64,000 nt of DNA from Hyphobacterium sp. CCMP332 (GTDB taxonomy: Bacteria > Bacteroidota > Bacteroidia > Cytophagales > CCMP332): assembly GCA_014323545.1 (NCBI GenBank), contig CP058647.1:750001-814000 (forward strand), written 5' to 3'. Under the pieces are notes generated by a model. The model saw only the letters and a list, made by a program, of their open reading frames with translations, was not told the origin of the DNA and made no database searches. This document shows positions 3,330 to 40,847 of the stretch, piece by piece. Made by a program: the position numbers and the translations under genes. The first letter of the stretch is position 1. Each line of letters begins with the position of its first letter.

Positions 3330-4390
3330 TGCAGCCGCAATTTTTAACACCGGGGCCATCGGAACTTTATTTCACAGTGGAGGATCATATAAGATCGGCC
3401 TTGCTCAGTGGTATTGGCAGTATTAGCCACCGAAGTGATGAATTCAAAAGTATATATAAAGAAACCGAAAAAAATCTTAGGAAATTGTTATCGATTCCGG
3501 AGGAATTTGCAGTGCTTTTTGCCGGATCGGCAACAGAGATTTGGGAAAGATCATTACAAAATATAAATCCTAAAAGACCGGGGTTCTTTATCAATGGGGC
3601 ATTTTCAGATAAATATTTCAAAACGGCCGAAGCGCTGGGATTCAAAGCAGAAACGTATTTCTGGACCGAAAAAAATTGGGATTTTGATCGTTATACATCG
3701 CTCGCAGATTGCGACTTCATAGGCATAGCTCAAAATGAAACCAGTCTTGGAATTGCCACGCCGACAGAAGTCATAAATGAAATCCGAAAAAGAAATTCTG
3801 ATGTATTTTTAGCGGTGGACATGGTATCCGGCCTCCCCTTTTATTCAGCCGATTGGCAAAATTGGGATTCGGTTTATTTTTCCGTTCAAAAGGGCTTTGG
3901 ACTGCCTGCGGGTTTGGGAGTATGGATTATTCGAAAATCCAAAATTAAAAGCGAGGCCAATGTTTCCCCTCATCGCAATGTTCTAAAATGGTTAGAAGCA
4001 GCAGAGCAATATCAAACACCCGAAACGCCGAATGTCTTAGGTATTTATCTGCTGGGAAAAGTTTGTGAGGATATGAATCGAAGAGGAATTGACATGATTC
4101 GTTCTGAAACAAGCTATAAAGCGGCATTGACCTATAATGCCTTTGATGACAGTCCTTTATTAAAACCTTTTGTGCAAGACAAAGTCTTACAATCCAAAAC
4201 AACCATTGTCGCAGAATGTCTGGGACTTAAATCCGATGTGATTATTGACCATTTGTTAAAATCAGGCATTCAAATAGGGAATGGCTATGGCAAACATTCG
4301 GAAACGCATATCAGAATCGCCAATTTTCCGACGCATTCAAAAGAGCTTTTTGAAAGATTGGTTGATGCTTTGGAAGAATTTAGGCCTTAG
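3329..4390 (+). CDS. serC: Class V aminotransferase, probable phosphoserine aminotransferase
   Basis: A 353-residue PLP enzyme of the class V aminotransferase fold. It opens with FLTPGPSELY, has a phosphate-contacting GSATEIWE segment near 66-73, an AVDMVSG aspartate region near 162-168, and the PLP lysine in SVQKGFGLPAG (Lys188). From its position directly after the SerB-SerA fusion (TAATG overlap), the likely reaction is conversion of 3-phosphohydroxypyruvate and glutamate to phosphoserine, which completes the serine pathway in two genes. Sequence alone does not exclude an alanine-glyoxylate type aminotransferase, but the overlap with a serA/serB fusion favours SerC. The next gene downstream is on the other strand and follows a short decayed sequence. 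Confidence 0.82.
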   Translation: MQPQFLTPGPSELYFTVEDHIRSALLSGIGSISHRSDEFKSIYKETEKNLRKLLSIPEEFAVLFAGSATEIWERSLQNINPKRPGFFINGAFSDKYFKTAEALGFKAETYFWTEKNWDFDRYTSLADCDFIGIAQNETSLGIATPTEVINEIRKRNSDVFLAVDMVSGLPFYSADWQNWDSVYFSVQKGFGLPAGLGVWIIRKSKIKSEANVSPHRNVLKWLEAAEQYQTPETPNVLGIYLLGKVCEDMNRRGIDMIRSETSYKAALTYNAFDDSPLLKPFVQDKVLQSKTTIVAECLGLKSDVIIDHLLKSGIQIGNGYGKHSETHIRIANFPTHSKELFERLVDALEEFRP

Positions 4391-4396
4391 TAATAT

Positions 4397-4477
4397 TTAC
4401 TTCAAATTCTCCTCAAATAATTTTAAAATCCTACGGTATTCATCGGTCCATGAACTGGCTTCTTTGAAGCCCACTGG
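4397..4477 (-). pseudogene. Remnant of the 3' end of an S9 peptidase gene
   Basis: Read on the minus strand, this gives 26 residues and a stop, including GFKEASSWTDEY and RILKLFEENLK. It matches the last 26 residues of the complete S9 peptidase ending at 5273 at 22 positions by hand alignment, and at about 64 of 81 bases. A stop codon (4478-4480) lies immediately upstream in frame, so nothing longer is coded. The intact gene and this fragment are direct repeats that flank the nucleotidyltransferase module at 4488-5134. The fragment probably marks an insertion or recombination event. Confidence 0.85.
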
Positions 4478-4487
4478 TTATAGATAA

Positions 4488-5272: not shown

Positions 5273-7624
5273 TTACCTTAAATTCTGCTCAAACAATTTC
5301 AAAATTCGACCATACTCATCGGTCCATGAGCTGGCTTCTTTAAAACCATGGGGTTCTATAGGATAGGATGCCAATTCCCAGTCCTTTTTACCCAATTCAA
5401 TGAGTTTCTGGGCTAAACGGATGATATCCTGGTATTGTACATTAGTATCCACCACACCATGCAACATTAATAATGGATCTTCAAGTCCTTCTGCAAAATA
5501 GATTGGTGATGATTTCATATAGGCCATGGAATCCTCAACAGGCGTGTTGAGAATATTGGAGGTATAGGGATGATTATAATGGGCCCAGTCGCTAACAGAT
5601 CGAATCGCAGCACCACAAGCAAAAGATTCCGGAACATTAAACAAGGCCATAAGCGTAATAAATCCCCCATAAGAGCCTCCGTAAATCCCTATTTTGTTTT
5701 TGTCAATACCCAATTCATCCACCAGGTATTTGGCACCGTCTACCTGATCACTCAAATCCTTGCCACCCATATGACGGTAAATGTCAGTGCGCCAGTCCCT
5801 GCCATATCCTTCGGAAGCACGATAATCAATATCTAATACCGTGTATCCCATATCCACTAATAAATTATGGAACATGTATTCACGATAATAGGAACTCCAC
5901 CATTTGTGGGCATTCTGGAGATATCCGGCACCATGGACAAAAATAACCGCGGCATTGTTTTTAATAGAATTTTCGGGTTTGTACAATCTGGCCCTTACTT
6001 TTTCCCCATCAGAGGCTTTGAAATAAATCAACTCCGGGACTTTCCATGAATAGTCATTAAATTCAGATTTTGTTGATTCTGTGATTTGTTTCATTTCTGC
6101 CCTAGGCTTGTTTTCCATTAAATACAGTTCCCAGGGTTTGTTATAAGTGGAATATCGACTTACAATGTATTTTTCATCGGGCGACAGGAACAGTTCATGA
6201 TGCCCTTCTCCTGAACTAAGCTGTGTTCTTTCTTTGCCCTCAAGATCCATTTTATACAAATGCCTCTCTCCGGGATCTTTTTCATTGCTGACTAAATAAA
6301 AATGTGTTTTATCCTTTGACAGAAATGCATCATGGACTTCAAAATCGCCTTTGCTCAAAGCTCTCTTTTTCCCTGATTTAATATGCACAGTATATAGGTG
6401 TGAATAGCCGCTTTCTTCCGAATGAAACCAGTAATGCTCTTCATCAGGCATCCAGCCTTTATTTCCGGGTACCATATTCCAGCCGGTAATGCCGGGGCCA
6501 CCAACCCATTTATCATCATGCTGTCTTTCGATCATCTTCCAGCTTGCAACTTCAGGATTTAAATACATCAACCAACGATCTTTATTGTCCTGGGCTTTAA
6601 TCTCAACCACAGCATTGCCATTTTCCGCTACATCCGGTCCATGGATCAATATTTTTCTTGGGTTCTCGAATGGTTTTGAAGCACTCTCTTTATCGTAAAT
6701 CGAATAAAATGCAGGTTTTTCGAATATCCCGGGAATGGCTTTGGTATCAAACTGTAACATGGTATCATTTTCAATTTGATAGACCCATAACTCCTCGGTT
6801 TCCAATTCCTGCCCTACTTTTGGCCGGTCCTCCAGAATTTTTGCATAACCATTATCGGCAACATAATCTAGGTTGTTGGTATTTTCATTGTTAACTTTTG
6901 ACTGCAATTGATAATAAACGTAGTTCCCATCTTCACTGAGTGTCATCGAAGAAATATTCATTTCGCCGTAATAAATGGTTTTTGGTTTTAGGTCTTTTAA
7001 TATTCGTCTTCTCTCCTCTTTATTTTTTCTCTCCTCTTCTCTTTTCTTCATGATATCAAAAAGTCGAACCTGATCTTTCTTTAGCCATTTTTCCTGTTCT
7101 GTGTCTTTTTTCTCCTTTTTCGTCCCGGATTTGAAATCTGTGATCTGTTTGATATTTCCTCCGGATAGTGCTCTTAGAAAAAGATTATTCCCCGATTCAT
7201 ACACGATATAAGCATCATTCATTACAAATCGGGGATTGCTTTCAGAGACATTGGTTTGTGTTAATTGTTCAATTTTGTTTTCAGCAATATTATTCAGAAA
7301 AATATCCCCACTTTTAGCGTATACCTTTAAGGTTCTGGAATTATTGTAATCTCCGGAAGAGGGAATTTCCATTAACGCCTCAAGCGGATCCATCTCGGTA
7401 ATGGCATTCACTTCTATATCATAGTTATAATAAGGATTAATGCCCGGATCTGACTCCCTCCATTTAAAATAAAAGCCATCGCTCTGCTCAGACCATATCA
7501 CTTCATCGGGAAGTGTTCCTACAAATTCTTCACCTTTCATGATTTCTGAAAGTATCAATTCAGAAGTTTGGGCCTGGAGATTTAAACTAAAAAGAACGAA
7601 TAGAATAAATGCAGCTGATCTCAT
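5273..7624 (-). CDS. Secreted S9 family peptidase, dipeptidyl peptidase IV-like
   Basis: A 783-residue protein with an N-terminal signal peptide (MRSAAFILFVLFSLNLQAQ). The N-terminal two-thirds is a DPP IV-type beta-propeller with repeated strand motifs such as YVYYQLQ, HYWFHSEESGYSHLY and HLYKMDLEG. The C-terminal alpha/beta-hydrolase domain has the nucleophile in YGGSYGGF (Ser651), the aspartate in HGVVDTNVQ (Asp726) and the histidine in EPHGFKE (His759), so the triad is complete. The family cleaves N-terminal dipeptides or short peptides, and periplasmic location is inferred from the signal. A lysine/glutamate-rich insertion near 180-215 may be a propeller loop. A short copy of its last 26 codons occurs at 4397-4477. 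Confidence 0.9.
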   Translation of the reverse strand: MRSAAFILFVLFSLNLQAQTSELILSEIMKGEEFVGTLPDEVIWSEQSDGFYFKWRESDPGINPYYNYDIEVNAITEMDPLEALMEIPSSGDYNNSRTLKVYAKSGDIFLNNIAENKIEQLTQTNVSESNPRFVMNDAYIVYESGNNLFLRALSGGNIKQITDFKSGTKKEKKDTEQEKWLKKDQVRLFDIMKKREEERKNKEERRRILKDLKPKTIYYGEMNISSMTLSEDGNYVYYQLQSKVNNENTNNLDYVADNGYAKILEDRPKVGQELETEELWVYQIENDTMLQFDTKAIPGIFEKPAFYSIYDKESASKPFENPRKILIHGPDVAENGNAVVEIKAQDNKDRWLMYLNPEVASWKMIERQHDDKWVGGPGITGWNMVPGNKGWMPDEEHYWFHSEESGYSHLYTVHIKSGKKRALSKGDFEVHDAFLSKDKTHFYLVSNEKDPGERHLYKMDLEGKERTQLSSGEGHHELFLSPDEKYIVSRYSTYNKPWELYLMENKPRAEMKQITESTKSEFNDYSWKVPELIYFKASDGEKVRARLYKPENSIKNNAAVIFVHGAGYLQNAHKWWSSYYREYMFHNLLVDMGYTVLDIDYRASEGYGRDWRTDIYRHMGGKDLSDQVDGAKYLVDELGIDKNKIGIYGGSYGGFITLMALFNVPESFACGAAIRSVSDWAHYNHPYTSNILNTPVEDSMAYMKSSPIYFAEGLEDPLLMLHGVVDTNVQYQDIIRLAQKLIELGKKDWELASYPIEPHGFKEASSWTDEYGRILKLFEQNLR

Positions 7625-10103: not shown

Positions 10104-13061
10104 TTAGTTCATCAATTCATCAAAAGTGAGAGAAATGTAATACAACCCTCCAATATTTGGACCCCCCTTACTTTGTATATAACGGTTGTTTAGAGCGTTC
10201 GAAGCCCCTATTTTAAGTATTGTTTTTAGCTCTTTCATTTTGTAGGACACCTGAGCATCCAAAGTAGAATATGCTGGAACTTCTCCTACGGCAAAAGATG
10301 ATTGCCATAAAAATGCATCCTGCCATCTATAAGTAATAGAAAAGCCAATATTTTTTATTACCTCTCTGTTACCAAAGCTTAAATTAGTTTTGTGTTCAGG
10401 CGTATTGTATTCTGCAAGAAATCCCTGAGCATTCAAATCCTCATTAAGACTATTGTAACTATAATTACCCCCAATAGTGTAATTTTTAGGCAATACATAT
10501 TGAATACCAATCGCCGCACCTTGTGTTGTTACCTGATCATCAATATTGGTATAAATCTGTGCGGTATTTCCGGTAAGCGTACCATCCGGCTGTATAGTTA
10601 AAGCTTCACCATTCACCAAAGAAGCATAGTTTTCTGTTCCGTCCGAATTAAGACTGACTTTTCTAAGCTGTACCTGAGTTATGAAATCAAGATAAATATT
10701 ATAGTAAACCGCAAAATCAATTAACAACTTATTATCAATCAAACTTTTATAACCAACTTCAAATGATCTAACCCTTTCCGGTTTTACCGGCTCGAAATTA
10801 TCGAACGGTTGCAGAAGAGCAATGTTTGAAGGATCATTGGCAGCAGCGGTAGTTGCTCCGGCGTCAAAAACAGCCTGTGAATATCTGTTTACTGAAGAAA
10901 TAGTATAAGCGTTTTCAGTGATTCTATATCGTTCGGCTGTTTCAGGTAATCCACCCAATAATCTGGCCGAAATGATACTCAAATCAATATACTGCCCCTG
11001 AGTGGTAGGAATTCTAAATCCTGTTTGAAATGAAGCACGAATATTATGAATTTCTTTAATTTTAAATACTCCCGATATTCTTGGGCTATACTGTCCGTCA
11101 AAGTTTTGGTTTTTATCATATCGAAGTGAACTGGTCAATTTCAGTTTTTCATCAAGTAAATATTTCGATGCCTGCACGTAACCTCCAAATTCATTAATGG
11201 TAATAGGGCTTTCTTTATCAGGAAAAATTGTTCCATTAGATCTTAATACAAATTGACGGTAATTTCCTCCTACTTGTAATCCATCCAAAAAAGGAACCTG
11301 CTTAGTAAAGTCATATTGCCCCTCAACGTGATCCATTCTACTATTATCATTGAACTTGGGGCCTTCAGGAACAATTCCTTTCCCTGCTTCATCCTTAATT
11401 TCATTAAATCCTTCTGTACCAGGTACAAGTCCAATTGAAGTATAAAGAGAATCCATATGAGAACGCGCTGCTAAATGCGCAATCTCCTGAGTTCTGATTT
11501 TATTCTGATCCGATAAACTTCCGAATTCTCCTGGTTCAAGTCCCTGATCATACAAAGATCTCAGATATTCTACTCCATAATCCGCTAAATATCTCGAAAC
11601 ATCATTCTCAGAGTTATTATATATTCTCTGCATCGCAATATCGTTCATACGTTTTGCAAGAAATTCTGCTATGTATGAATCACCCGATTGCTCTATGGTA
11701 GTATATCCCCGAATAAAAAAGTTTTCACCTTTTAATTTTAACTGGTGTTGCTGAATATTGAAATTCTTTAAAGAATATCTTTGTGCCCCAGTATATATAC
11801 TAGTACCTGCGCCATAATTATATTGATAGCTTGCCTCCAAACCCTCAGTGATACGATAATATAGACCACCATTAAATTTTATATTTTCAGCAGAGTAATC
11901 GACCAAATATTCCTCTTGCCATGCCTTAGCCGTTACTACCTGACTTGGAAGGTCTCTTGCGTAATCTGAAGCAGCTAATATATCATCCCCGGCCTCATTA
12001 ATACCAAATGTTTTCGTTCTTGCGAGCGTCTGCCAGTCAGTGCTCAAATTAAATATTGCAAGATTAATCCCTGCTTCATCGCCCATGGTATGTAATCGGT
12101 CCGCTCCCGGGTTTGTTATGCCCAATTGACCTCTTCTTTCAGGAAATCGGTCAGTTAAATCTGTTCCATGCCAGTCATCAGCACGCTGATATGAGGCATT
12201 TACTTTAAATGCAACACGATTTCCAAATGCTTTGGCATATCGCAAAGAACCTTCGTATATAGGAGCAGTATTCTGGTCAGCATCTGCACCAACATGATTA
12301 AAACCTGATTTTACAAAAGCGCTTAAACCCTGATAATCAAATGCATTTTTGGAGTTGACCAACATTATACCATTAAATGCATTGGGACCATAAAGTGCTG
12401 ATGCTGCACCAGGAATTAATTCCACGCTTTCAACATCCAATTCGGAAGGTCCATTTAGATTTCCGATGGGAAAATTTAATGCGGGCGCCTGAGTATCCAT
12501 ACCGTCGGTCAATTGTACAAATCGCGTATTTCCCGTACTGCCAAATCCTCTAGTATTTATGATTTGAAAATTAATAGAGGAAGTAGCAACATCAACGCCT
12601 TTTAAATTTGCAATACCCTTATAATAATTATCCGCTGGAGTATTTTGTATGGCCAAAATATCCATCTTTTCAATAGAAACCGGGGATTCAAGAATACTTT
12701 CTTCAACTCTTGAAGCGGAAACTACTACTTCCTGCCCCAGTAAAGATTGAGTTTCTAAAGCAACCTCGACATTTTGATTATCTTCTGTTATTTCAATTTC
12801 CCTTTTATTATAACCAACACTAGATATTACCAGGGTGAATGGTCTGGGAGTATTGGTTTTCAATTCAAATTCTCCTTTGGAATTGGTTATTGTTCCTGTT
12901 ACGGTTCCTTTTACATAAACATTCACTCCTATTAATTCATCATTATTTTCAGCATCCTTGATCTGTCCTGTTACTGTTGTTTGTGCGGTGGAAGAGACTG
13001 AAATAAAGAGAAATAGGATAAAAAGGAGGAATGAAGATTTTTTAAGTATAGCTATAGTCAT
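10104..13061 (-). CDS. TonB-dependent outer-membrane receptor with CarboxypepD_reg-like domain
   Basis: An outer-membrane importer of about 985 residues. ATG at 13061 starts a good signal peptide (MTIAILKKSSFLLFILFLF), so I prefer it over the more distant starts that would add 24 non-signal-like residues. After the signal comes a carboxypeptidase-regulatory-like domain (TGQIKDAENNDELIGVNVYV), then a plug (VVVSASRVEESILESPVSIE, LIPGAASALYGPNAFNG), then a long beta-barrel with aromatic strand ends. No SusD partner is adjacent, so it is a stand-alone receptor and not a SusCD pair. The substrate cannot be read from the sequence. It converges with the FAS1 gene, and both use the terminator at 10055-10084. 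Confidence 0.88.
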   Translation of the reverse strand: MTIAILKKSSFLLFILFLFISVSSTAQTTVTGQIKDAENNDELIGVNVYVKGTVTGTITNSKGEFELKTNTPRPFTLVISSVGYNKREIEITEDNQNVEVALETQSLLGQEVVVSASRVEESILESPVSIEKMDILAIQNTPADNYYKGIANLKGVDVATSSINFQIINTRGFGSTGNTRFVQLTDGMDTQAPALNFPIGNLNGPSELDVESVELIPGAASALYGPNAFNGIMLVNSKNAFDYQGLSAFVKSGFNHVGADADQNTAPIYEGSLRYAKAFGNRVAFKVNASYQRADDWHGTDLTDRFPERRGQLGITNPGADRLHTMGDEAGINLAIFNLSTDWQTLARTKTFGINEAGDDILAASDYARDLPSQVVTAKAWQEEYLVDYSAENIKFNGGLYYRITEGLEASYQYNYGAGTSIYTGAQRYSLKNFNIQQHQLKLKGENFFIRGYTTIEQSGDSYIAEFLAKRMNDIAMQRIYNNSENDVSRYLADYGVEYLRSLYDQGLEPGEFGSLSDQNKIRTQEIAHLAARSHMDSLYTSIGLVPGTEGFNEIKDEAGKGIVPEGPKFNDNSRMDHVEGQYDFTKQVPFLDGLQVGGNYRQFVLRSNGTIFPDKESPITINEFGGYVQASKYLLDEKLKLTSSLRYDKNQNFDGQYSPRISGVFKIKEIHNIRASFQTGFRIPTTQGQYIDLSIISARLLGGLPETAERYRITENAYTISSVNRYSQAVFDAGATTAAANDPSNIALLQPFDNFEPVKPERVRSFEVGYKSLIDNKLLIDFAVYYNIYLDFITQVQLRKVSLNSDGTENYASLVNGEALTIQPDGTLTGNTAQIYTNIDDQVTTQGAAIGIQYVLPKNYTIGGNYSYNSLNEDLNAQGFLAEYNTPEHKTNLSFGNREVIKNIGFSITYRWQDAFLWQSSFAVGEVPAYSTLDAQVSYKMKELKTILKIGASNALNNRYIQSKGGPNIGGLYYISLTFDELMN

Positions 13062-31242: not shown

Positions 31243-33873
31243 ATGGCTGAAGAATTATCAACCAAATACAATCCTGTTGCAGTAGAAGACAAATGGTATT
31301 CACACTGGATGAAAAATGGCTTTTTTAAATCAAGTCCAGACCCTTCCAGGAAACCATATACCATTGTAATTCCTCCTCCAAATGTAACCGGTGTCTTGCA
31401 TATGGGCCATATGCTCAACAATACCATTCAGGATGTTTTAATTCGCCGCGCCAGAATGAAAGGTTTTGAAGCATTGTGGGTTCCCGGAACAGATCATGCC
31501 TCAATTGCCACAGAAGCAAAAGTAGTGGCCATGCTGAAAGAAAAAGGATTAAGTAAAAAGGAAATCGGCAGAGAAAAATTCCTGGAGCACGCCTGGGAAT
31601 GGAAAGAAAAATACGGTGGTATAATTCTTGAACAATTAAAAAAATTAGGTGCAAGTTGCGATTGGGACCGCACGCGTTTTACCATGGAGGAATCCCTTTC
31701 AGAAGCAGTGATTTACGTTTTCGTTGATCTTTATGAAAAAGGAATGATTTATCGCGGTATTCGAATGGTCAATTGGGATCCAGAAGGAAAAACCGCTATT
31801 TCTGATGATGAAGTGGTCTATAAAGATGTGAATTCCAGATTGTATTTTGTCAATTATAAAATAGAAGGAGAAGACAGAGAGGTCACAATAGCAACGACGA
31901 GGCCTGAAACCATTTTAGGAGATACAGCCGTATGTATAAATCCAAATGATGAAAGATATAAGGACTTAAAAGGCAAAAAGGTCATTGTTCCTATCGCCAA
32001 TCGCTTAGTGCCAATAATTGAGGATGAATACGTAAGTATGGAATTTGGTACTGGATGTCTAAAAGTCACTCCTGCACATGATATTAATGACTATGAACTA
32101 GGTCAAAAGCATCAACTTGAAAGCATAGAGATATTCAATGATGATGGAACATTGAATAAATACGGTTTGCATTATGAAAATGAAGATCGATTTGTAGTCA
32201 GGAAAAAGATAGCCAAAGAGTTGGAGTCGCTCGGTCAAATGGCCAAAATCGAAGAATACCAAAACAGCGTAGGATTTTCTGAAAGAACAGACGCGGTCAT
32301 TGAGCCCAAATTGTCCATGCAGTGGTTTTTAAAAATGGATGAAATCACAAAACCAGCCTATGAAAATGTGATGAATGACACCATTAAACTTATTCCTCCA
32401 AAATTTAAAAACATGTATCGGCATTGGATGGAAAATGTTCGGGATTGGTGTATTTCACGCCAGTTATGGTGGGGACATAGAATACCGGCCTGGTATATCA
32501 ATGGATCTGATTTTGTAATTGCTAAAAATGAAGATGAAGCGCTGAGAAAAGCAAAACAGAAAACAGGAAACGAGAAATTGCAAAAAGAAGACCTAAAGCA
32601 AGATGAAGATGTACTCGATACCTGGTTTTCAAGTTGGCTATGGCCGATTTCTGTTTTTGACGGCTTTAAGAATCCTGATAATAAAGACATCAATTATTAC
32701 TATCCGACTAATACATTAGTCACCGCACCGGAAATTTTGTTTTTCTGGGTGGCCCGAATGATCATCGCCGGATACGAATACAAAGGGGAAAGACCATTTA
32801 ATGAGGTTTATCTTACGGGAATTGTAAGAGATAAGCAAGGCAGAAAAATGTCCAAGTCATTGGGTAATTCTCCCGATCCTTTGGAATTGATTGCCAAATA
32901 CGGAGCAGATGGGGTACGTGTAGGCATGCTTCTATCCTCACCCGCGGGTAATGACCTTCTTTTTGATATAAAACTCTGTGAACAGGGAAGGAATTTTAAT
33001 AATAAGATCTGGAATGCATTCAGACTGGTTCGCGGTTGGGAAGTTGATGAAAAAAAGAGACCTGAAAATGAGATCGCGATTGAGTGGTTTGAGAATCGCT
33101 TTCGCGATTCACTTCAAGTACTTGAAGACCATTTCTCCAAGTACCGTATGTCGGATGCATTAATGACTGTCTACAAACTGGTTTGGGATGATTTCTGCTC
33201 CTGGTATCTCGAAATGGTCAAACCACCCTATCAGCAGGCTATTGATGCACATACCTACAATGCTACATTGCAATTCTTTGACAAGCTTGTAAGAGTACTG
33301 CATCCATTTACACCTTTCATCAGTGAGGAAATATGGTCCAAGCTGAGAGACAGGGATGAAAAAGACTGTCTGATTGTAGCTGAATGGCCGGAAACACATA
33401 GCTATGATGAACAAATTATCGATCAGGCCAACAGAATTTTTGAAGTTGTTTCTGCAATTCGAAATTTCAGAAATGAAAAACAGATTTCACCTAAAATCGT
33501 ATTGAATTTAAACATCGAAACCGCCGATATTCAGGTGTATCAGCGATTTGAGTCAGTACTTAAAAAGCTGGCCAATATTGATGCACTTGAATTTAACCAG
33601 GAAGCCGGCTCAGGTGATTTTGCTCTGATTGTTCGAAAAGACAAGCTACATATTCCAATGGATCAAAGTATCGATGTGGAAGAAGAGCAGAAAAAACTCA
33701 AGGAGGAACTGGAATACACCAAAGGCTTTTTGGCTTCGGTGAGTAAAAAACTCAGCAATGAACGCTTTGTGAATAATGCTCCGGAAGCAGTTGTTGCCAA
33801 GGAAAAACAAAAGCAGCAAGACGCCGAAGAAAGGATTAAGGTTCTAGAGAAGCAGTTGGAGAGCCTAAGTTGA
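31243..33873 (+). CDS. valS: Valyl-tRNA synthetase
   Basis: An 876-residue class I synthetase. It has the HIGH-type motif in [15 protein letters not shown] (HMGH at 53-56), the CP1 editing region ([17 protein letters not shown]), KMSKS in [14 protein letters not shown] near 535, and a C-terminal coiled arm rich in lysine and glutamate ([13 protein letters not shown] to EKQLESLS). The length and arrangement are normal for ValS. A terminator hairpin follows. A decayed copy of its last 12 codons is found 4.9 kb downstream at 38780-38818. Confidence 0.97.
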
Positions 33874-33933
33874 TTATTCCCGTGCATTCCCACATTTGTT
33901 GCAGGACACGGGTTCCCCTACAATGTTTTCGTC

Positions 33934-33968
33934 ATTCCAGTGCTAGTCACTGGAATCTATTTTTTTTC
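33934..33968 (+). terminator. Terminator of valS
   Basis: ATTCCAGTG pairs with CACTGGAAT across loop CTAGT, followed by CTATTTTTTTT. The matching place in the right repeat copy keeps the left arm (ATTCCAGTG) but has lost the right arm, as expected for a copy no longer serving valS. Confidence 0.8.
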
Positions 33969-34067
33969 CAGTAAAAAATTGTAGTCTCCAAGAACTCGCT
34001 TTGCATCTCCGCACAAATTACGGGATTGGAGTGATGAAGCTTTGGATCTTCCCTATTGTTTGAATTT

Positions 34068-34112
34068 TCAGTTTTTAAAAAGCATCCTCGAACCAAGGTA
34101 ATTCTTATCCCT
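34068..34112 (-). pseudogene. Remnant of the 3' end of a metallophosphoesterase gene
   Basis: On the minus strand, the last 14 codons before TGA at 34068 read RDKNYLGSRMLFKN, against GDENFLGSGMFFRN at the end of the intact gene at 39027. Eight residues are identical and most others conservative. Further upstream the frame is broken (CTA TAG-like codons instead of the conserved Arg-Trp). It marks the left junction of the inserted cassette. Confidence 0.75.
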
Positions 34113-34155
34113 TAGCTAATTCGTAACACTAAATTATTTTTCGTAATTGTGAATG

Positions 34156-36543
34156 CTAATCTATAAAAATCCTTTTCACGCTTTTTTGACCTCCAGCTTT
34201 TACTTCAAGAAGATAAATACCACTTTTCAAGTCGGCTGTTACAAGTATGAAATGATTAGCAGTTTTAGCTATTCTGTTTTCGATCTTTAAGACTCTCCCA
34301 GCGATATCCATCACAATTACTTCAAGCTCGTTTATTTCTGAGAAGTTTTCAGATAAAGCTATTTTAACGAAATCATCTGCCGGATTGGGGTATGTTATGA
34401 AAGTAAAGTTTGAATTCTGAAATGCTTCTTGTCCATAATCCAAACCAATTTTCGTCTGAATTTTTTGGGCTTGGTAGTCATTACTATTACAAATGTTATT
34501 GATTTCTGCAGCTGTAGCCAAGATTATAGACGCATCGCAGCTTCTACCCAATCGACTGATTTGCAAATCTGAATTTGGTAATAGGTCTGACTCAGAATTT
34601 ACATCAATAGTATGCCCAGCAATAACGTTGGTGAAACCCGGGTTCACGGGATGAACAGCCGTTGCTGTTATAGTACTATTACTTACTGTAATTGTTTCCA
34701 AGGCACTAACATCTTCGTCAATCGTGGAGTTATTGATATTTAGATTCTGAGTAGCACCGAAGAAACCATTGTTTTTACTGTCAAAAGGAGATTTGTTAAA
34801 CCAATTGTAATTGTATATAGCTCCATAAGGAATCCATTGACTATTATCAGGACCGTAAGAATATGAATGAACGACTAATTCAGTTTCCCATGTACTTTTA
34901 TGTAAGAATTTTTCTCCATTGTTATTTTCAAAAACTAAAATTAAAGATAGATTAAGGTCGTCAATATTTAAATTTGGATGAATAAAACCAATCTTACTTT
35001 CATCTATAATTATTGCATTTTCTTCTGCACAAGCCAGGGGTATTAAGTCGGATGTCCATTGTGTGTCATTAATAACAGATCCGCCACTTGTAGCTATAAT
35101 ACTATGTCTATTTAAATCAACAACATTCAGTTGAAAGTATTCTTCAACAATGTTTAAGTCTGAAGCAGGATTTAAGGCAATTTTTATACTCTGTTGATTA
35201 ATATTAAACCACTTCCTAATCCGAGTTTCATAATATCCGCCTGGTAAACTCGAAACTTGCCGATAAGTCCACCCGGTATACATTTCAATTATTGGTTTTT
35301 CCAACAAGGTATAAACCCCCAAAATTTCATTATATAAAGGATATCGATCATCAAAATTGGGTAGTTGATTATTAGGTACAAAACTGGAACCTGGAGTAAA
35401 TAGTGGTTTTGTAAAATAGTTAAAATTGGAAGTTAGAGTCCCACTAAAATTATGTTCAAGTTGTATTGACATTGGCGGTAATGACACAGTGTTTGCACCA
35501 TCCTTTTTTTTGCCACCACCTACGAAAAAGTCTATTATTGACAAGGCTTCCGAGATATAAGGCACAGCTTTTAATTCAGGAATATTGTTTGTTAAAAAGC
35601 TTCCGAGATTATCAATACCCGATTTCATGTCGGTTTCTTTACTTTTCCCTGTTGCTGTATTTTTTGCATCCGTTTTAAATACACTAAAAGATTTATAGCC
35701 TTTTTTCCCTGTTTCTATTAACTGTCCCGCTTTTTTAACTGTCCCGTAGAAGTCATTCCAATTTGCAGAACTGGAAGAGCTTGCATTTGCCTTATTAACG
35801 ATAGTTTGAATACTACCATTACTAAAGCCTTTTAATTCTATTGTGGCTTCATCAATTAAATTTACATCAAATTTCAAATTACTGATCCCGCCTGGATTAC
35901 TAATGGGAGGTGTACAGGTGCACGGATCATAATTGACCGGAAAATCGGCATAATGCCAATGTTTCACAAGAGTGCCTCCATTGGTTAGCTTCTGAACATT
36001 GGATGCTACCGCGGTTGGATCAAAATTTTTAAGAGGTTTTTGCACTTTGTTAACTGAGCCTAAAAGTGCTGTATTATAGTCACCTTCAATTTCCAGCACA
36101 ATTTCGGTCAGGTTGTTTTGGTTTAGTTGATCAATAGCTACAAATACCCTAATGATAGAACGGAATTTATTATATAAAACAAAGAAGAGTTGCCCGGATG
36201 CTGTCGGTGGAAGAAGAGGGTTACCCAGTTTATCAAGTCCTAAATCAACATAAAGTAATTCCCAACCGTCTTCGGGCTCAAAATCGTCTGTACCGTAAAG
36301 ACTTGTTACCCCACCATTATTAACATTGTAAGGATTTGCCTGTTGTTGAACAGCCCCTCCAACAAAATTTACGTTGTATGGATCCTGAGTCCAATCGAAA
36401 AAGTTGTTTAGATAATTTGGATGTTGATTATTTACGGGATTTGAAGGGTCGGTCATTACTCCAGTTGGAGGGCACGGTATTTGTTGAGCAGCCAATGGTG
36501 AAGATATGACCATCAAAAAAAGAATAGCATAATAGTTTTTCAT
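34156..36543 (-). CDS. T9SS-exported protein of unknown function
   Basis: A 795-residue exported protein with signal peptide MKNYYAILFLMVISSPLAAQQ. The body is beta-rich with a cysteine pair (CTCTPP) near 209. A region near 640-690 (TITVSNSTITATAVHPV, NVIAGHTIDVNSESDLLP) resembles the short beta-helical pre-tail repeats common in Bacteroidota surface proteins. The last 80 residues are a type A T9SS sorting domain (FITYPNPADDFVKIALSE to SGIYLLEVKAGGQKSVKRIF). No enzymatic motif was seen. It follows the lipoprotein gene by five bases, so the two are cotranscribed. It belongs to the cassette between the duplicated flanks. Confidence 0.82.
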   Translation of the reverse strand: MKNYYAILFLMVISSPLAAQQIPCPPTGVMTDPSNPVNNQHPNYLNNFFDWTQDPYNVNFVGGAVQQQANPYNVNNGGVTSLYGTDDFEPEDGWELLYVDLGLDKLGNPLLPPTASGQLFFVLYNKFRSIIRVFVAIDQLNQNNLTEIVLEIEGDYNTALLGSVNKVQKPLKNFDPTAVASNVQKLTNGGTLVKHWHYADFPVNYDPCTCTPPISNPGGISNLKFDVNLIDEATIELKGFSNGSIQTIVNKANASSSSSANWNDFYGTVKKAGQLIETGKKGYKSFSVFKTDAKNTATGKSKETDMKSGIDNLGSFLTNNIPELKAVPYISEALSIIDFFVGGGKKKDGANTVSLPPMSIQLEHNFSGTLTSNFNYFTKPLFTPGSSFVPNNQLPNFDDRYPLYNEILGVYTLLEKPIIEMYTGWTYRQVSSLPGGYYETRIRKWFNINQQSIKIALNPASDLNIVEEYFQLNVVDLNRHSIIATSGGSVINDTQWTSDLIPLACAEENAIIIDESKIGFIHPNLNIDDLNLSLILVFENNNGEKFLHKSTWETELVVHSYSYGPDNSQWIPYGAIYNYNWFNKSPFDSKNNGFFGATQNLNINNSTIDEDVSALETITVSNSTITATAVHPVNPGFTNVIAGHTIDVNSESDLLPNSDLQISRLGRSCDASIILATAAEINNICNSNDYQAQKIQTKIGLDYGQEAFQNSNFTFITYPNPADDFVKIALSENFSEINELEVIVMDIAGRVLKIENRIAKTANHFILVTADLKSGIYLLEVKAGGQKSVKRIFID

Positions 36544-36548
36544 ACTTA

Positions 36549-37388
36549 TTATTGTTTGATACCGGAAAAAATGTCATTTACATAAGGATCATTCAAAACA
36601 CTCCATTGGCAGGTGTCATTTGGATTAAAAGGAAATATCCCGAAATCCATAAGTAAATTTTTATTATTATCTACCACTCCAAAAGCACTGAGACCATTGC
36701 AACAACCGATCTTAGTACCGATAGAGCTCAGATAAAAACTCCGATAACCTAGTTGAATATCTTCTAGTCCCCCGCCACCCAAACTACTTGTTGAGCATTT
36801 AGGTGTAATGCCTGCAATGGAATATTTTCGATCACCCCAAAAATCTGTTGTGGTATCAATTTCAAAAAAGTTTTTTTCCTCAGGAGCACTTTCCATATAG
36901 CCTTCAAAACGACCAAGTACTCTTGAACTGTCTTTGGGAACAGTGATGAGTAGGCGAGTAAAAACAGCAGTATCACTATTATTCGGAAAACAAGTTTTGT
37001 CACTTTCTTTATACACTTTTAGAGTAATAGGAATCGGAGTGTAATTTGGTAATCCAAAACGCAATGAAAATTCCCTTGTATTCCAAACACGCGGATCCGT
37101 GCCCACACTCCATTCGTAATAGTCAGCTTCGAAATCTGCCCTGAACAGCGCGAAATTTGAATTCAGAATCGTGTCTGTAGCAACATCTTTAGATTCAAAT
37201 CCATCACTGGGTTTCGGTCCATTACCCAAAAGCTCGTAAATTGTAAAACTGGCATCTGATTTAGTCTGTCCACAGCAAGGGTCATAATTATTACAATCTA
37301 CATTGCACGGGTCTTCGCAATCTTCATTGCAAGCAATAAAAGTGCTGAGAATAAAAATTGAAAAAATTAATGCAAATTGATTTTTCAT
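36549..37388 (-). CDS. Cysteine-rich lipoprotein of unknown function
   Basis: A 279-residue protein with a lipoprotein signal (MKNQFALIFSIFILSTFIAC, lipid-bearing Cys20). Directly after comes an unusual cysteine cluster (NEDCEDPCNVDCNNYDPCC), which is probably disulfide-linked. The rest contains beta-rich motifs (YYEWSVGTDPRVW, LRFGLPNYTPIPITLKVY) that resemble a PKD-like domain, plus a GCCNG pair near 230. It is five bases upstream of the T9SS protein gene, suggesting a surface pair. I do not recognise the family. Confidence 0.7.
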   Translation of the reverse strand: MKNQFALIFSIFILSTFIACNEDCEDPCNVDCNNYDPCCGQTKSDASFTIYELLGNGPKPSDGFESKDVATDTILNSNFALFRADFEADYYEWSVGTDPRVWNTREFSLRFGLPNYTPIPITLKVYKESDKTCFPNNSDTAVFTRLLITVPKDSSRVLGRFEGYMESAPEEKNFFEIDTTTDFWGDRKYSIAGITPKCSTSSLGGGGLEDIQLGYRSFYLSSIGTKIGCCNGLSAFGVVDNNKNLLMDFGIFPFNPNDTCQWSVLNDPYVNDIFSGIKQ

Positions 37389-37586
37389 TGATATTGTCTC
37401 TTTAGATAACAGTTAACTTCACCCCTAAAAAAATTAGTTAATGGTGTCAATTGTTATACGTTGTTTGCCTGCCAAGATGAGTAAAGTTTTTGAATCGAAA
37501 TTTGTCCAACTTTGAAATTCCCTGAATTAAATTTTCAATTCTGATCGTTTCAAATTAATTATTGTTTCATTGAATTATGACCCGAA

Positions 37587-38633
37587 TTATTTGCCTAAGT
37601 CTTCTATTTGCCCTTGCAGATCTATCACATAAAGAGTGAGTTCCTCTATTTTTTCAAGCAATAGGCGGTTCATATCCGCAACATCTACCCCAGATTCCAT
37701 CACCTCTTTTGTACTTGGGATATTAGGTAAATGCCCATTTTCTTTAATATAATCGTCTAGTTCTTGAATATTTCTCAGCTCATATCCATCTTCAAAAACA
37801 TAGTCTGACCAGTTATGTGCTGTGACTATAACGCGTCTTGCCGCTATTTTACCGTTTACATGAAGTTCAGCGTCAGAATGGGGTCCATTGTTACGATTAC
37901 CAATAGTAACTTTATCCCATAACCTAATTTGTCGCTCTCCAACTTCTTCACCCGCGCCCACGATATCGAGATTTGGAGTCCAGATTTGATAACCAATTTT
38001 TCCAGCGTTCACTTCTTTCTCAACACCATAGCCAAATTCAAGATAATTACTTTCACGGATTTCTACGTTATTTTCATGCCTTGAAATTCCATTGAATGTA
38101 GAAAGGTTTGAAACGGAAAAATTTTGTTGAACATTTAAATCTCCAATTAAATTGGAACTTCCTTTTACCTGAAATTTATGAGAACCAATATTGATATCAG
38201 CATAAGTTTCTCCAATAGAAATCTTGCTATTTAACATTAATATATCATCCTCAAAAGTTGCATTATCCTTGAAAGTCGATTGGTTATGAGTTACAAAACC
38301 TCCATAAACATCTAAATTCAATGGTCCTAAACCTATGATATTGGTGTAGGTAGAATTATTTCCGCTGTATTTAAATTTTAATCCCCCGGTAAACCCTTCA
38401 TTTTTAATCTGAAAATTTCTATAGTGAGTAGTTGAAATCTCAGTGTCTGCATAATTCCAATTAATATTTATTGCCGGAAGGTTTGAATTAGGTGTACCCC
38501 CTGGCGCAGCATTATCAGATTGGATTGTTGTGGTCACATCAGTTCCGTTCAATTGCCATTCCAAGTGACTTTGACTTAATACATTTGAGAAAATAAATAG
38601 TAATGATATTAGAGTTATATAAAATCTCTTCAT
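37587..38633 (-). CDS. Exported tail-fibre-like protein
   Basis: A 348-residue protein with signal peptide MKRFYITLISLLFIFSNVLSQ. The middle is repetitive and beta-rich (LNLDVYGGFVTHNQSTF, NVQQNFSVSNLSTFNG). The C-terminal 90 residues are a widespread Bacteroidota motif: ELHVNGKIAARRVIVTAHNW, GYELRNIQELDDYIKENGHL, PNIPSTKEVMESGVDVADMN, then a helix (RLLLEKIEELTLYVIDLQGQ). This resembles the intramolecular chaperone or trimerising end of tail-fibre-type proteins. It is about 200 bases upstream of the lipoprotein gene, same strand, and is the third gene of the inserted cassette. Confidence 0.72.
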   Translation of the reverse strand: MKRFYITLISLLFIFSNVLSQSHLEWQLNGTDVTTTIQSDNAAPGGTPNSNLPAININWNYADTEISTTHYRNFQIKNEGFTGGLKFKYSGNNSTYTNIIGLGPLNLDVYGGFVTHNQSTFKDNATFEDDILMLNSKISIGETYADINIGSHKFQVKGSSNLIGDLNVQQNFSVSNLSTFNGISRHENNVEIRESNYLEFGYGVEKEVNAGKIGYQIWTPNLDIVGAGEEVGERQIRLWDKVTIGNRNNGPHSDAELHVNGKIAARRVIVTAHNWSDYVFEDGYELRNIQELDDYIKENGHLPNIPSTKEVMESGVDVADMNRLLLEKIEELTLYVIDLQGQIEDLGK

Positions 38634-38779
38634 GCGTTCTTACTTTGTTGTTGCAGCTCTAATCAAAAAAAAAAAATATAACATCAAACTTTTATCATAA
38701 AATTCATAAAATAAATATCTAAATACATTTAATGGGTAGATACTGAATAACATGAAATCGAAAAAATATAATAAGCATG

Positions 38780-38818
38780 ATTAAGGTTTAGGAGAAGCAA
38801 TTGAAAAGTTTGAGTTGA
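38780..38818 (+). pseudogene. Remnant of the 3' end of valS
   Basis: The plus strand reads IKV, stop, EKQLKSLS, stop, against [12 protein letters not shown], stop at the end of intact valS (33835-33873). Similarity stops abruptly before 38780. One internal stop (TAG at 38789-38791) shows it is not expressed as a protein. Confidence 0.8.
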
Positions 38819-39072
38819 TTATTCCCACGCCCCGCGGCATGGCGGGGGACACGGGATCCCCTTCAATGTTTTCGTCATTCCAGTGCATTTCACAATAATC
38901 TCTTTTGACTCCAGTAACTTCTTTCAACCCGACCCCGCATCAATTTTCGGTTTTAGTCTCAAATCTGCGCCGGGACAATTCCATATCACATTATATTACA
39001 CATTCGTAATCCGAAATTCGTAATTCTTAATTTCTAAAGAACATCCCCGACCCCAGAAAATTCTCATCCCCT
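38780..39072. repeat. Right copy of the direct repeat flanking the gene cassette
   Basis: This copy begins with a decayed valS 3' end, passes through the shared spacer and runs into the intact 3' end of the metallophosphoesterase gene. It fills most of the 393-base spacer 38634-39026. It carries its own GC-rich hairpin (CCCCGC-GGCAT-GCGGGG, near 38830-38847), absent from the left copy. The part before 38780, up to the tail-fibre-like gene, shows only AT-rich sequence with no gene. Confidence 0.8.
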
Positions 39073-40847
39073 CTCCAGTTTGGCTGCCAGTAATACATCT
39101 TCGGATCTTCTTCATCAAAATCTTTATCTCCAACAATTAGGTTGAACCTGAAATTTTTCCAGTCTTTACCTTGCAATTGCTCAATGTATGAAAGTGGAAT
39201 GGCCCATTCAAAAGTATAGCCTTCTTCATTTGCTTTGCAAGCGTATTGACTTCCTTCAGGCAGTTTTTCGCTCTTCCATGTTTGCGATTCATTTTTGCCT
39301 TTCTCCGGAGTCATTAGAAAATACATTTCATTTTTATACCAGCCTTCTCCCACACTCAATGCGCTTTTTTCTGCTATTTCAGCATTGAGACAAATGCCAA
39401 TATAATCCTGAGTCCATGGCCTGCCACTGCCATAGCTAATCACATTATTATCTTTAATTTTAGCCGCCAGATAAAGCATATCCTTATCGTATTTTAAGTC
39501 AAAATTTGCCTGAACACTAGCATTGCTTTCCGGTAAAATTTTGTAGTTAAGATCTTCCCAGTCTTTTAAATCGGCATCAACAGAAATTTTCTTTTTGGCC
39601 TTTTCAATAAAATTTTTCCTAATTGGTTTTAATCGGTATTCAAAAGGCAGTTTTATCTCTGTTTCACTTCTACCCGTATAAGTTAGCGTTGCCTTTAATG
39701 TTACGGGGCGTATATTACCAATCTCTTGTTTATTCTTTACTAGCATTGTCATTTCGTACATCCCAACGGAGTTTGGCGGAACGATTATTTCTTCCTTATC
39801 CCCATAAATTATCAGGTCAAAACTAAATCCGGGATTGAATCGAATTTTTAATGGTACGTTTTCATCATTGGTAATACTGGCTACAATTTTCGCCTCATTT
39901 TCAATTATATCATTGGTATAGATCAGTTGAAATTCAATCGGTGATTTATCCTGCAAATAATTGATTTCGTTTCTGACATCTTCAGTGACCACGTTTTCAT
40001 CCCAAATACCCTCAAGTAAAAGATTGGCAACAATTGCCTCACCATTTTTCATGGTCACCCAAACTACATGATCAAATTCACCAAATCCGGGTCCCCTTAG
40101 ATTGCTTCGCCCACCGGTCGTTGCCAAGACAAAATATTTGCCTTGATTTCTTTCGTATTTAGTGTATCGATGGTAATGACCGGTAAACACGTGATGTGAT
40201 CTGTTTTTAAGCAAATTTTCTACATCCTTCCACCTTTTTGTATCCTCCTGGGTCCAAAGCGGTTGATGCATGAATACCAGGGTGTGTTTTACATTCTCAT
40301 TTTCTTTTAGTGTTTTACTGATCCAATCAAATTGCTTATCCGAAATGGTTCCTCTCCCCGCCCCGCGTTTTTGATCTTCGGAATTAAGACAAAGAAATAG
40401 AACACCCTTGTATGTAAAAGCATAATAAGTATCTCCTAATCTTTCTTTCCAAAGATTTTCCATGACCTGATTGGTGATGTCGTGATTTCCCGGAACGTAG
40501 AAAAAGGGCATATCCAGTTTCTCGATAAAACCATCAAACTCTTCCCATTGACGTTCCAGCACCGGAATATTTTCGGTATAGCCATCGATCAAATCCCCAA
40601 CTGACATTACAAATTCGGGTTGAAGCAAATTCAATTTATTTATGGCATCCATAAAAACACCTGGTCTCTTATCGCCCGTTCGATCCGTTACGATTGCGAA
40701 TTGAAAATTATTTTCACTTCTATTAACTTTTGTACTTGTAAATGGGTGTACATCAGTCGATTGCATAGGTAGAATTGTTATGCCGGCATTTTGTGATTTG
40801 GAATCAACAACTAAACTCAACATCAGAAATATCAATAGAATTCGCAT
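39027..40847 (-). CDS. Secreted metallophosphoesterase with C-terminal CBM9-like domain
   Basis: About 606 residues starting at ATG 40847, which gives a proper signal peptide (MRILLIFLMLSLVVDSKSQ); the longer frame from 40925 adds 26 unlikely residues. The calcineurin-like domain shows FAIVTDRTGD, SVGDLIDGY, VPGNHD, FMHQPLW and FTGHYHRYTKY, which are the metal-binding blocks. The first block reads D-R-T where the usual motif is D-x-H, so one common metal ligand may be replaced or shifted. The C-terminal 190 residues look like a CBM9/DOMON-type beta-sandwich (DADLKDWEDL, DLKYDKDMLYLAAKIKDN). Phosphodiester or phosphomonoester substrate is unknown. Its 3' end is duplicated at 34068-34112. Confidence 0.82.
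   Translation of the reverse strand: MRILLIFLMLSLVVDSKSQNAGITILPMQSTDVHPFTSTKVNRSENNFQFAIVTDRTGDKRPGVFMDAINKLNLLQPEFVMSVGDLIDGYTENIPVLERQWEEFDGFIEKLDMPFFYVPGNHDITNQVMENLWKERLGDTYYAFTYKGVLFLCLNSEDQKRGAGRGTISDKQFDWISKTLKENENVKHTLVFMHQPLWTQEDTKRWKDVENLLKNRSHHVFTGHYHRYTKYERNQGKYFVLATTGGRSNLRGPGFGEFDHVVWVTMKNGEAIVANLLLEGIWDENVVTEDVRNEINYLQDKSPIEFQLIYTNDIIENEAKIVASITNDENVPLKIRFNPGFSFDLIIYGDKEEIIVPPNSVGMYEMTMLVKNKQEIGNIRPVTLKATLTYTGRSETEIKLPFEYRLKPIRKNFIEKAKKKISVDADLKDWEDLNYKILPESNASVQANFDLKYDKDMLYLAAKIKDNNVISYGSGRPWTQDYIGICLNAEIAEKSALSVGEGWYKNEMYFLMTPEKGKNESQTWKSEKLPEGSQYACKANEEGYTFEWAIPLSYIEQLQGKDWKNFRFNLIVGDKDFDEEDPKMYYWQPNWRGDENFLGSGMFFRN

Follow-up and report, generated by a model that had tools for sequence, protein, structure and literature searches.

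A three-gene exported-protein module lies between two reciprocally decayed copies of the valS/metallophosphoesterase junction in Hyphobacterium sp. CCMP332

We analyzed a 64,000-nucleotide stretch (the window) covering bases 750001-814000 of the single-contig, 3.33 Mb genome of Hyphobacterium sp. CCMP332, in which a module of three exported-protein genes separates the valyl-tRNA synthetase gene (valS) from a metallophosphoesterase gene (MPE) and is bordered on each side by a copy of the junction between these two genes. Coordinates are window positions unless the genome or another locus is named. The features of the locus are as follows.

31243..33873, + strand: valS, intact valyl-tRNA synthetase gene and left host gene (open frame)
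33834..34111, no strand: left junction copy, comprising the valS 3' end, the spacer and an MPE 3' remnant (local alignment to 38779-39070)
33934..33956, + strand: terminator-like hairpin with a 9-pair stem, followed by a T run and intact in the left copy only
34068..34112, - strand: decayed MPE 3' end (33 of 45 bases identical to 39027-39071)
34156..36543, - strand: P0002, large exported protein with a type IX secretion sorting tail (PF18962, E 3.4e-12; TIGR04183, E 3.4e-10)
36549..37388, - strand: P0003, small Cys-rich protein with a lipoprotein-like signal peptide as judged by eye (P0003-family profile)
37587..38633, - strand: P0004, exported protein whose C-terminal tail is conserved, coiled-coil-like by eye (resembles tail genes in other modules)
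38779..39070, no strand: right junction copy, comprising a valS remnant, the spacer and the MPE 3' end (local alignment, shuffles)
38780..38818, + strand: decayed valS 3' end with one in-frame stop (30 of 39 bases identical to 33835-33873)
39027..40847, - strand: MPE, intact calcineurin-type metallophosphoesterase with a CBM9-like domain and right host gene (PF00149, E 3.9e-12; PF06452, E 3.4e-9)

The left host gene, which we take to be valS following the first-pass annotation and common knowledge, has orthologues that are 61-63% identical in the two other members of the family in our comparison set (G001 and G002, both of another genus). MPE was taken to start at an ATG, and its open frame reaches 40925 from a TTG. 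The two genes are convergent and would meet at their 3' ends. A search of G001 and G002 found MPE in neither, and in G001 the gene that follows valS differs from that in the window. The nearest relatives of MPE (L007 and L046) are 45-49% identical, and that of L046 does not adjoin valS; the one distant match in the wider genome contigs lies away from valS. The valS/MPE neighborhood was seen in the window genome only.

Inspection of the two sides of the module reveals that the valS/MPE junction is present twice. Local alignment of 33834-34111 with 38779-39070 yields a score of 150, compared with a maximum of 49 among 500 shuffles, where 191 of 269 aligned bases are identical over 301 columns. 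The first-pass annotation had described direct repeats with reciprocal gene remnants around the cassette and had suggested a comparison of the remnants with shuffled sequence. That comparison, run with 2000 first-order shuffles, places every piece above its null maximum (valS end, 44 versus 35; spacer, 96 versus 40; MPE end, 50 versus 31), and the repeats are accordingly real. We also recovered the reported 23-base identical block in the shared spacer, which is the longest and starts at 33921 and 38864, and obtained the same identity and single stop for the valS remnant. The middle of the spacer (about 33976-34060) is alignable only with many gaps. Decay is reciprocal, such that the left copy retains an intact valS end and a decayed MPE end, with the opposite arrangement in the right copy.

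The terminator-like hairpin follows the same division. Fold z-scores are -4.75 for the left copy versus +0.86 for the right copy, in which the hairpin is broken. Retention of the hairpin in the left copy alone is as expected if a terminator is needed only beside valS.

The repeated junction is rare in the genome. In the whole 3.33 Mb, the left spacer copy finds, apart from itself, only the right copy and a stretch of 38 bases at 1650643, and the right spacer copy matches only itself and the left copy; the search thus gives no further full copy and does not support the earlier suggestion of a dispersed spacer repeat. A 12-base core of the spacer occurs exactly only at the two copies, with 11 more sites at one mismatch, for a total of 13 sites versus 4 for a reversed control, and a short terminator-like core may therefore be mildly common in the genome. 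Direct repeats spaced 1-15 kb apart at E <= 1e-6 number 16 pairs in the 304 kb around the window (550001-854000, where reading frames were checked for each pair). Long paralogous reading frames account for 15 of the 16, and the remaining pair is the valS/MPE junction repeat; the whole 484 kb scanned adds only an insertion-sequence pair and an attC-like array (2247-2273 kb). Other repeats observed include an 86-base direct repeat in the window (4397-4482 and 5273-5358, 79% identical, 876 bases apart) and, in genome coordinates, tandem arrays of long paralogous reading frames at 601750-619198 (1404-1465 codons) and 581909-591298 (718-736 codons).

At a probability of about one half, we favor the explanation that the module entered the valS/MPE 3'-3' junction and that the insertion duplicated this junction, an insertion that appears to have occurred long ago. 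The module would have inserted between the convergent valS and MPE genes, and the insertion would have copied the junction such that the terminator region and both gene ends came to flank the module on its two sides. Each of valS and MPE would have retained one working copy, leaving the useless outer halves to decay, namely the MPE end on the left and the valS end with its terminator hairpin on the right. We infer that the module entered and the junction was duplicated in a single event, in which the duplication would have been a variable-length target duplication produced through tandem duplication or template switching as opposed to a transposase or integrase.

The module is not confined to this junction. 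The same type, consisting of a tail gene (P0004-like), a lipoprotein-like gene (P0003-like) and a type IX secretion system (T9SS) gene (P0002-like), recurs at unrelated loci in other genomes of the order, with gene order and strand mostly kept. Exceptions are L074, where the T9SS gene precedes the lipoprotein gene, and L079, where the tail gene is last; several loci carry only the lipoprotein gene. When 390 genomes of the order were searched with a P0003-family profile, 29 matched at E <= 0.001; 25 of them have E 1.7e-11 or better (seven of these supplied rows of the profile), and four fall between 3e-4 and 9e-4. Empty sites were found for two modules of G063. The two genes beside L073, one of them a transporter gene, directly adjoin each other and converge in G020 and G077; in G172, which belongs to the same genus, 344 bases separate them. 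The two convergent genes that flank L075 are likewise adjacent in G020 and G077. Only one immediate neighbor was found at either site in G035, G049 and G090, which are uninformative. Modules of different families match at the DNA level over just 56 to 252 bases, largely within the tail gene (at most three pieces per pair were considered), and no recent horizontal transfer of the module was seen.

Duplicated junctions with scars were found at three unrelated junctions: the window, L174 and L180. At L180, a 38-base terminator hairpin is perfectly repeated, once after the left gene and once over the stop codon of the right gene. This hairpin has no other occurrence in the remaining 261 kb of G177, where one weak 37-base match was found (E 0.001). 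At L174, a decayed repeat of the left gene's last 39 bases and terminator lies beyond the module, with 93 of 109 aligned bases identical and a score of 39 for the coding piece versus a null maximum of 30 in 2000 shuffles. The 315 kb of G160 contain no like copy elsewhere; the sole match there, to the right copy, is 28 bases long (E 0.003). The module at L174 is itself decaying, as its lipoprotein gene is whole, its tail gene appears broken by eye and its T9SS gene was not found. Two similar scars beside the same module type hint at a repeated way of entry.

To place these scars in context, we compared modules with control segments. Twenty-one loci have a gene on both sides, a set that includes lipoprotein-only loci and leaves out L080, L081 and L172 (no gene on one side), the insertion-sequence and cassette-array loci, and the shortest contigs (L049, L053, L076, L078, L176, L179 and L181). 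Automatic calls place 7 of the 21 between convergent genes (window, L073, L074, L075, L177, L178 and L180), and L174 would be an eighth if the right-hand gene read by eye at about 11650-12240 on the - strand is real. Among complete three-gene modules with both neighbors, 6 of 8 are convergent (P 0.004-0.019 versus an expected 25-33%), although this subset was picked afterwards and the 7 of 21 overall represent no clear excess; a general preference for convergent junctions is not established. Repeats were then sought at E <= 1e-6 within 300 bases inside and 400 bases beyond the gene ends, in modules and in 153 non-overlapping control segments drawn from 1.69 Mb with the same automatic gene calls. 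Such repeats occur beside 2 of 7 convergent-bounded modules with the window included versus 2 of 153 controls (P 0.0095), a comparison made after the cases were seen. With L174 counted by eye and the window excluded, the result is again 2 of 7 (P 0.0095). Among non-convergent loci, L174 and L171 carry such a repeat. An earlier set of overlapping controls (5 of 558; with L174 counted, P 1e-4, or 0.0027 without the window) overstates the difference and was replaced by the non-overlapping set. A version with 1200-base windows was void, since the two windows overlap on short segments (67 of 153 control matches).

Repeats at several further loci were set aside, those at L078, L171 and L053 for a dispersed or tandem look by eye and those at L079 (E 5e-4), L167 (E 0.002) and L172 (AT-rich) as weak or low-complexity. 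Short palindromic or dispersed-looking repeats lie beside the modules of L171 (8818-8921 and 12936-12961, with a small tandem array) and L078 (740-785 and 4892-4942). L053 is a 3.8 kb contig with two module genes and identical 67-base ends (1-67 and 3769-3835), which may reflect a circular molecule, a direct repeat at its flanks or an artifact of assembly.

Several observations weigh against insertion with junction duplication. None of the relatives compared shows an empty valS/MPE junction; both family genomes belong to another genus and are without MPE. Five convergent-bounded modules (L073, L074, L075, L177 and L178) have no direct repeat above shuffles, and these include both modules with proven empty sites (L073 and L075). 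The repeats differ in sequence and in length (38, about 110 and about 290 bases), such that one mechanism is not forced. In addition, alignment shuffles alone give P 0.04 for the repeat at L180, its DNA being AT-rich, and L174 fails the automatic convergence rule, with its right neighbor called on the other strand. Excluding the window, which is how the case was found, reduces the comparison to 1 of 6 versus 2 of 153 (P 0.11). The statistical link of modules with duplicated junctions is weak.

The remnants themselves bear on how the duplication arose. Codon meanings are kept at 11 of 13 positions in the valS remnant and 9 of 15 in the MPE remnant. In a codon-bias test that re-deals the observed substitutions within the remnants, the excess of conserved residues gives combined P values of 0.064 (identity) and 0.026 (BLOSUM) for the short remnant pieces, and of 0.010 and 0.023, respectively, with a longer MPE piece. 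No test of a single remnant gives P below 0.05, and the bias is weak and piece-dependent. Judging from these substitutions, some divergence of the remnants may date from a time when both copies coded. A lean toward amino-acid-keeping substitutions is expected under single-crossover (Campbell-type) integration of a related-strain circle that carried its own valS-end/MPE-end junction beside the module, where divergence would have accrued partly while both copies were coding. In this scenario the crossover would fall in the spacer and the remnants would be donor sequence, yielding exactly the reciprocal layout observed. We consider such an origin rather unlikely, given the weakness of the bias, the lack of a donor-like relative among the genomes compared and a repeat of 38 bases such as that of L180, which the circle leaves unexplained. 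It likewise leaves unexplained how the module first came beside such a junction, moving the question of first entry one step back. The locus resembles Campbell-type insertion-duplication in having cargo between direct repeats and an intact gene with reciprocal truncated ends. It differs in that its repeats are old (by the identity given above) and short for homologous exchange, in that no donor or circle was seen, and in that partly similar scars exist at two unrelated junctions. In contrast to the circle, a target duplication near a terminator, as in the explanation we favor, needs no junction-bearing donor. Of the integration model put forward in the first-pass annotation, cargo insertion with reciprocal junction duplication is supported by the layout, the recurring module, the empty sites and the two scars, and the single crossover of a related-strain circle is left unproven, the codon bias being weak and none of the relatives compared having the junction.

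A period with two working copies, which would also account for the codon bias, is implied by a larger tandem duplication of valS and MPE in this lineage followed by deletion of the redundant gene bodies, with the module arriving separately or retained between them; tandem duplication was the main alternative named in the first-pass annotation. Bacteria are known to acquire such duplications, among other routes when transformed with DNA that is partly repeated (PMC3784515). The same paper reports transformation-driven merodiploidy in Streptococcus pneumoniae with duplications of about 100-900 kb between existing repeats (PMC3784515). As portrayed there, the pneumococcal case is akin to ours as a direct chromosomal duplication tied to entering DNA, with one copy free to decay, and is unlike it in scale, the duplicated unit here being 38 to about 290 bases. 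We regard this history as unlikely, since it needs two independent deletions, each ending within about 60 bases of a gene end, and does not explain the scars of L174 and L180 beside the same module type.

We next considered hallmarks of mobile elements. Pfam and NCBIfam scans of the three window proteins found no transposase and no recombinase family. None of the 8 modules tested has terminal inverted repeats (P 0.16 to 0.93 over these 8; window, P 0.92), and transposon-like ends were rejected. Upstream ends are alike beyond 100 shuffles for L180 with L177 and for L073 with L075, which share one genome. No tRNA gene that could serve as a target lies within the window. Site-specific integration, in which the terminator region would serve as attachment site for a recombinase supplied in trans, would fit the dyad-symmetric direct repeats seen at L180 and in the window's left copy, as well as the presence of one lipoprotein-family member in an attC-like cassette array of this genome. 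We nevertheless judge it highly improbable: in addition to the missing recombinase and inverted repeats, no common motif was noticed in the three repeats (by eye, no motif search made), and the window homology spans both gene ends, far past a core. Some integrative elements duplicate the 3' end of their target gene. The window module is like these in that the insert carries a 3' gene fragment at its far end, and unlike them in that its three proteins include no integrase, the ends of both neighbors are involved and the repeats vary by site.

The cassette array (L072, genome positions 2244001-2264000, continuing to about 2272720) holds small genes, nearly all on the minus strand, with attC-like repeats between them. 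Among its genes are ParE-like and nucleotidyltransferase ones, one cassette is repeated almost identically, and the stretch looks like a chromosomal cassette array. Its lone P0003-family gene is accompanied by repeat families D2, D4 and D5 and complementary ends, read by eye. A tyrosine recombinase nearby (2274293-2275102) falls below the integron-integrase cut-off; TIGR02249 matches near L072 are all below the cut-off, as they are in all 14 control genomes. The likeness to integron cassettes, a P0003-family gene bounded by attC-like repeats in the same genome, concerns a locus other than the window, where no attC-type site came up in a strict consensus scan, one that failed to detect the L072 array repeats as well.

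The proteins of the module were characterized by library searches. The sorting domain of P0002 exceeds curated cut-offs (PF18962, 46.9 bits against 27; TIGR04183, 39.8 bits against 23), and Pfam matches of its family come essentially through the secretion tail (8 of 9 members). Neither P0003 nor P0004 has a Pfam or NCBIfam match, and 0 of 14 P0003-family members match Pfam. P0004 matches the tail genes of other modules with E values down to 1.6e-55. Among solved structures, none matches the P0003 family and matches of the P0002 family are limited to the C-terminal part. A PHROGs search gave no match below E 0.04, and plasmid matches comprise two Vibrio records covering 24% of P0002. Among the papers listed by the literature searches, judged by titles and abstract openings, none describes the module or the scar, and the module is undescribed in the libraries searched.

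Additional module loci present surroundings of their own. A second copy in the window genome (874537-879661; L071 7537-12661) has a cut T9SS gene and sits, as in a composite transposon, between two insertion-sequence copies that are 99.5% identical and point the same way. Helix-turn-helix genes that appear XRE-type-like by eye lie divergent from the module at L077 (7649-7987), L079 (10688-11071), L171 (9074-9499) and L175 (6683-7081), and none was seen beside the window module.

A broader view is that the module constitutes a non-autonomous mobile unit of the order that enters and duplicates terminator hairpins between convergent genes, which we think improbable. Both neighbors would then keep a terminator, and the hairpin would be the target either by its shape, as for attC hairpins, or through template switching, a doubtful proposition at present. 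It is similarly a long shot that the enzymes would come in trans. A module placed between convergent genes with a copied terminator would be a concrete, testable route by which cargo lacking its own recombinase could settle at chromosomal sites where it does no harm.

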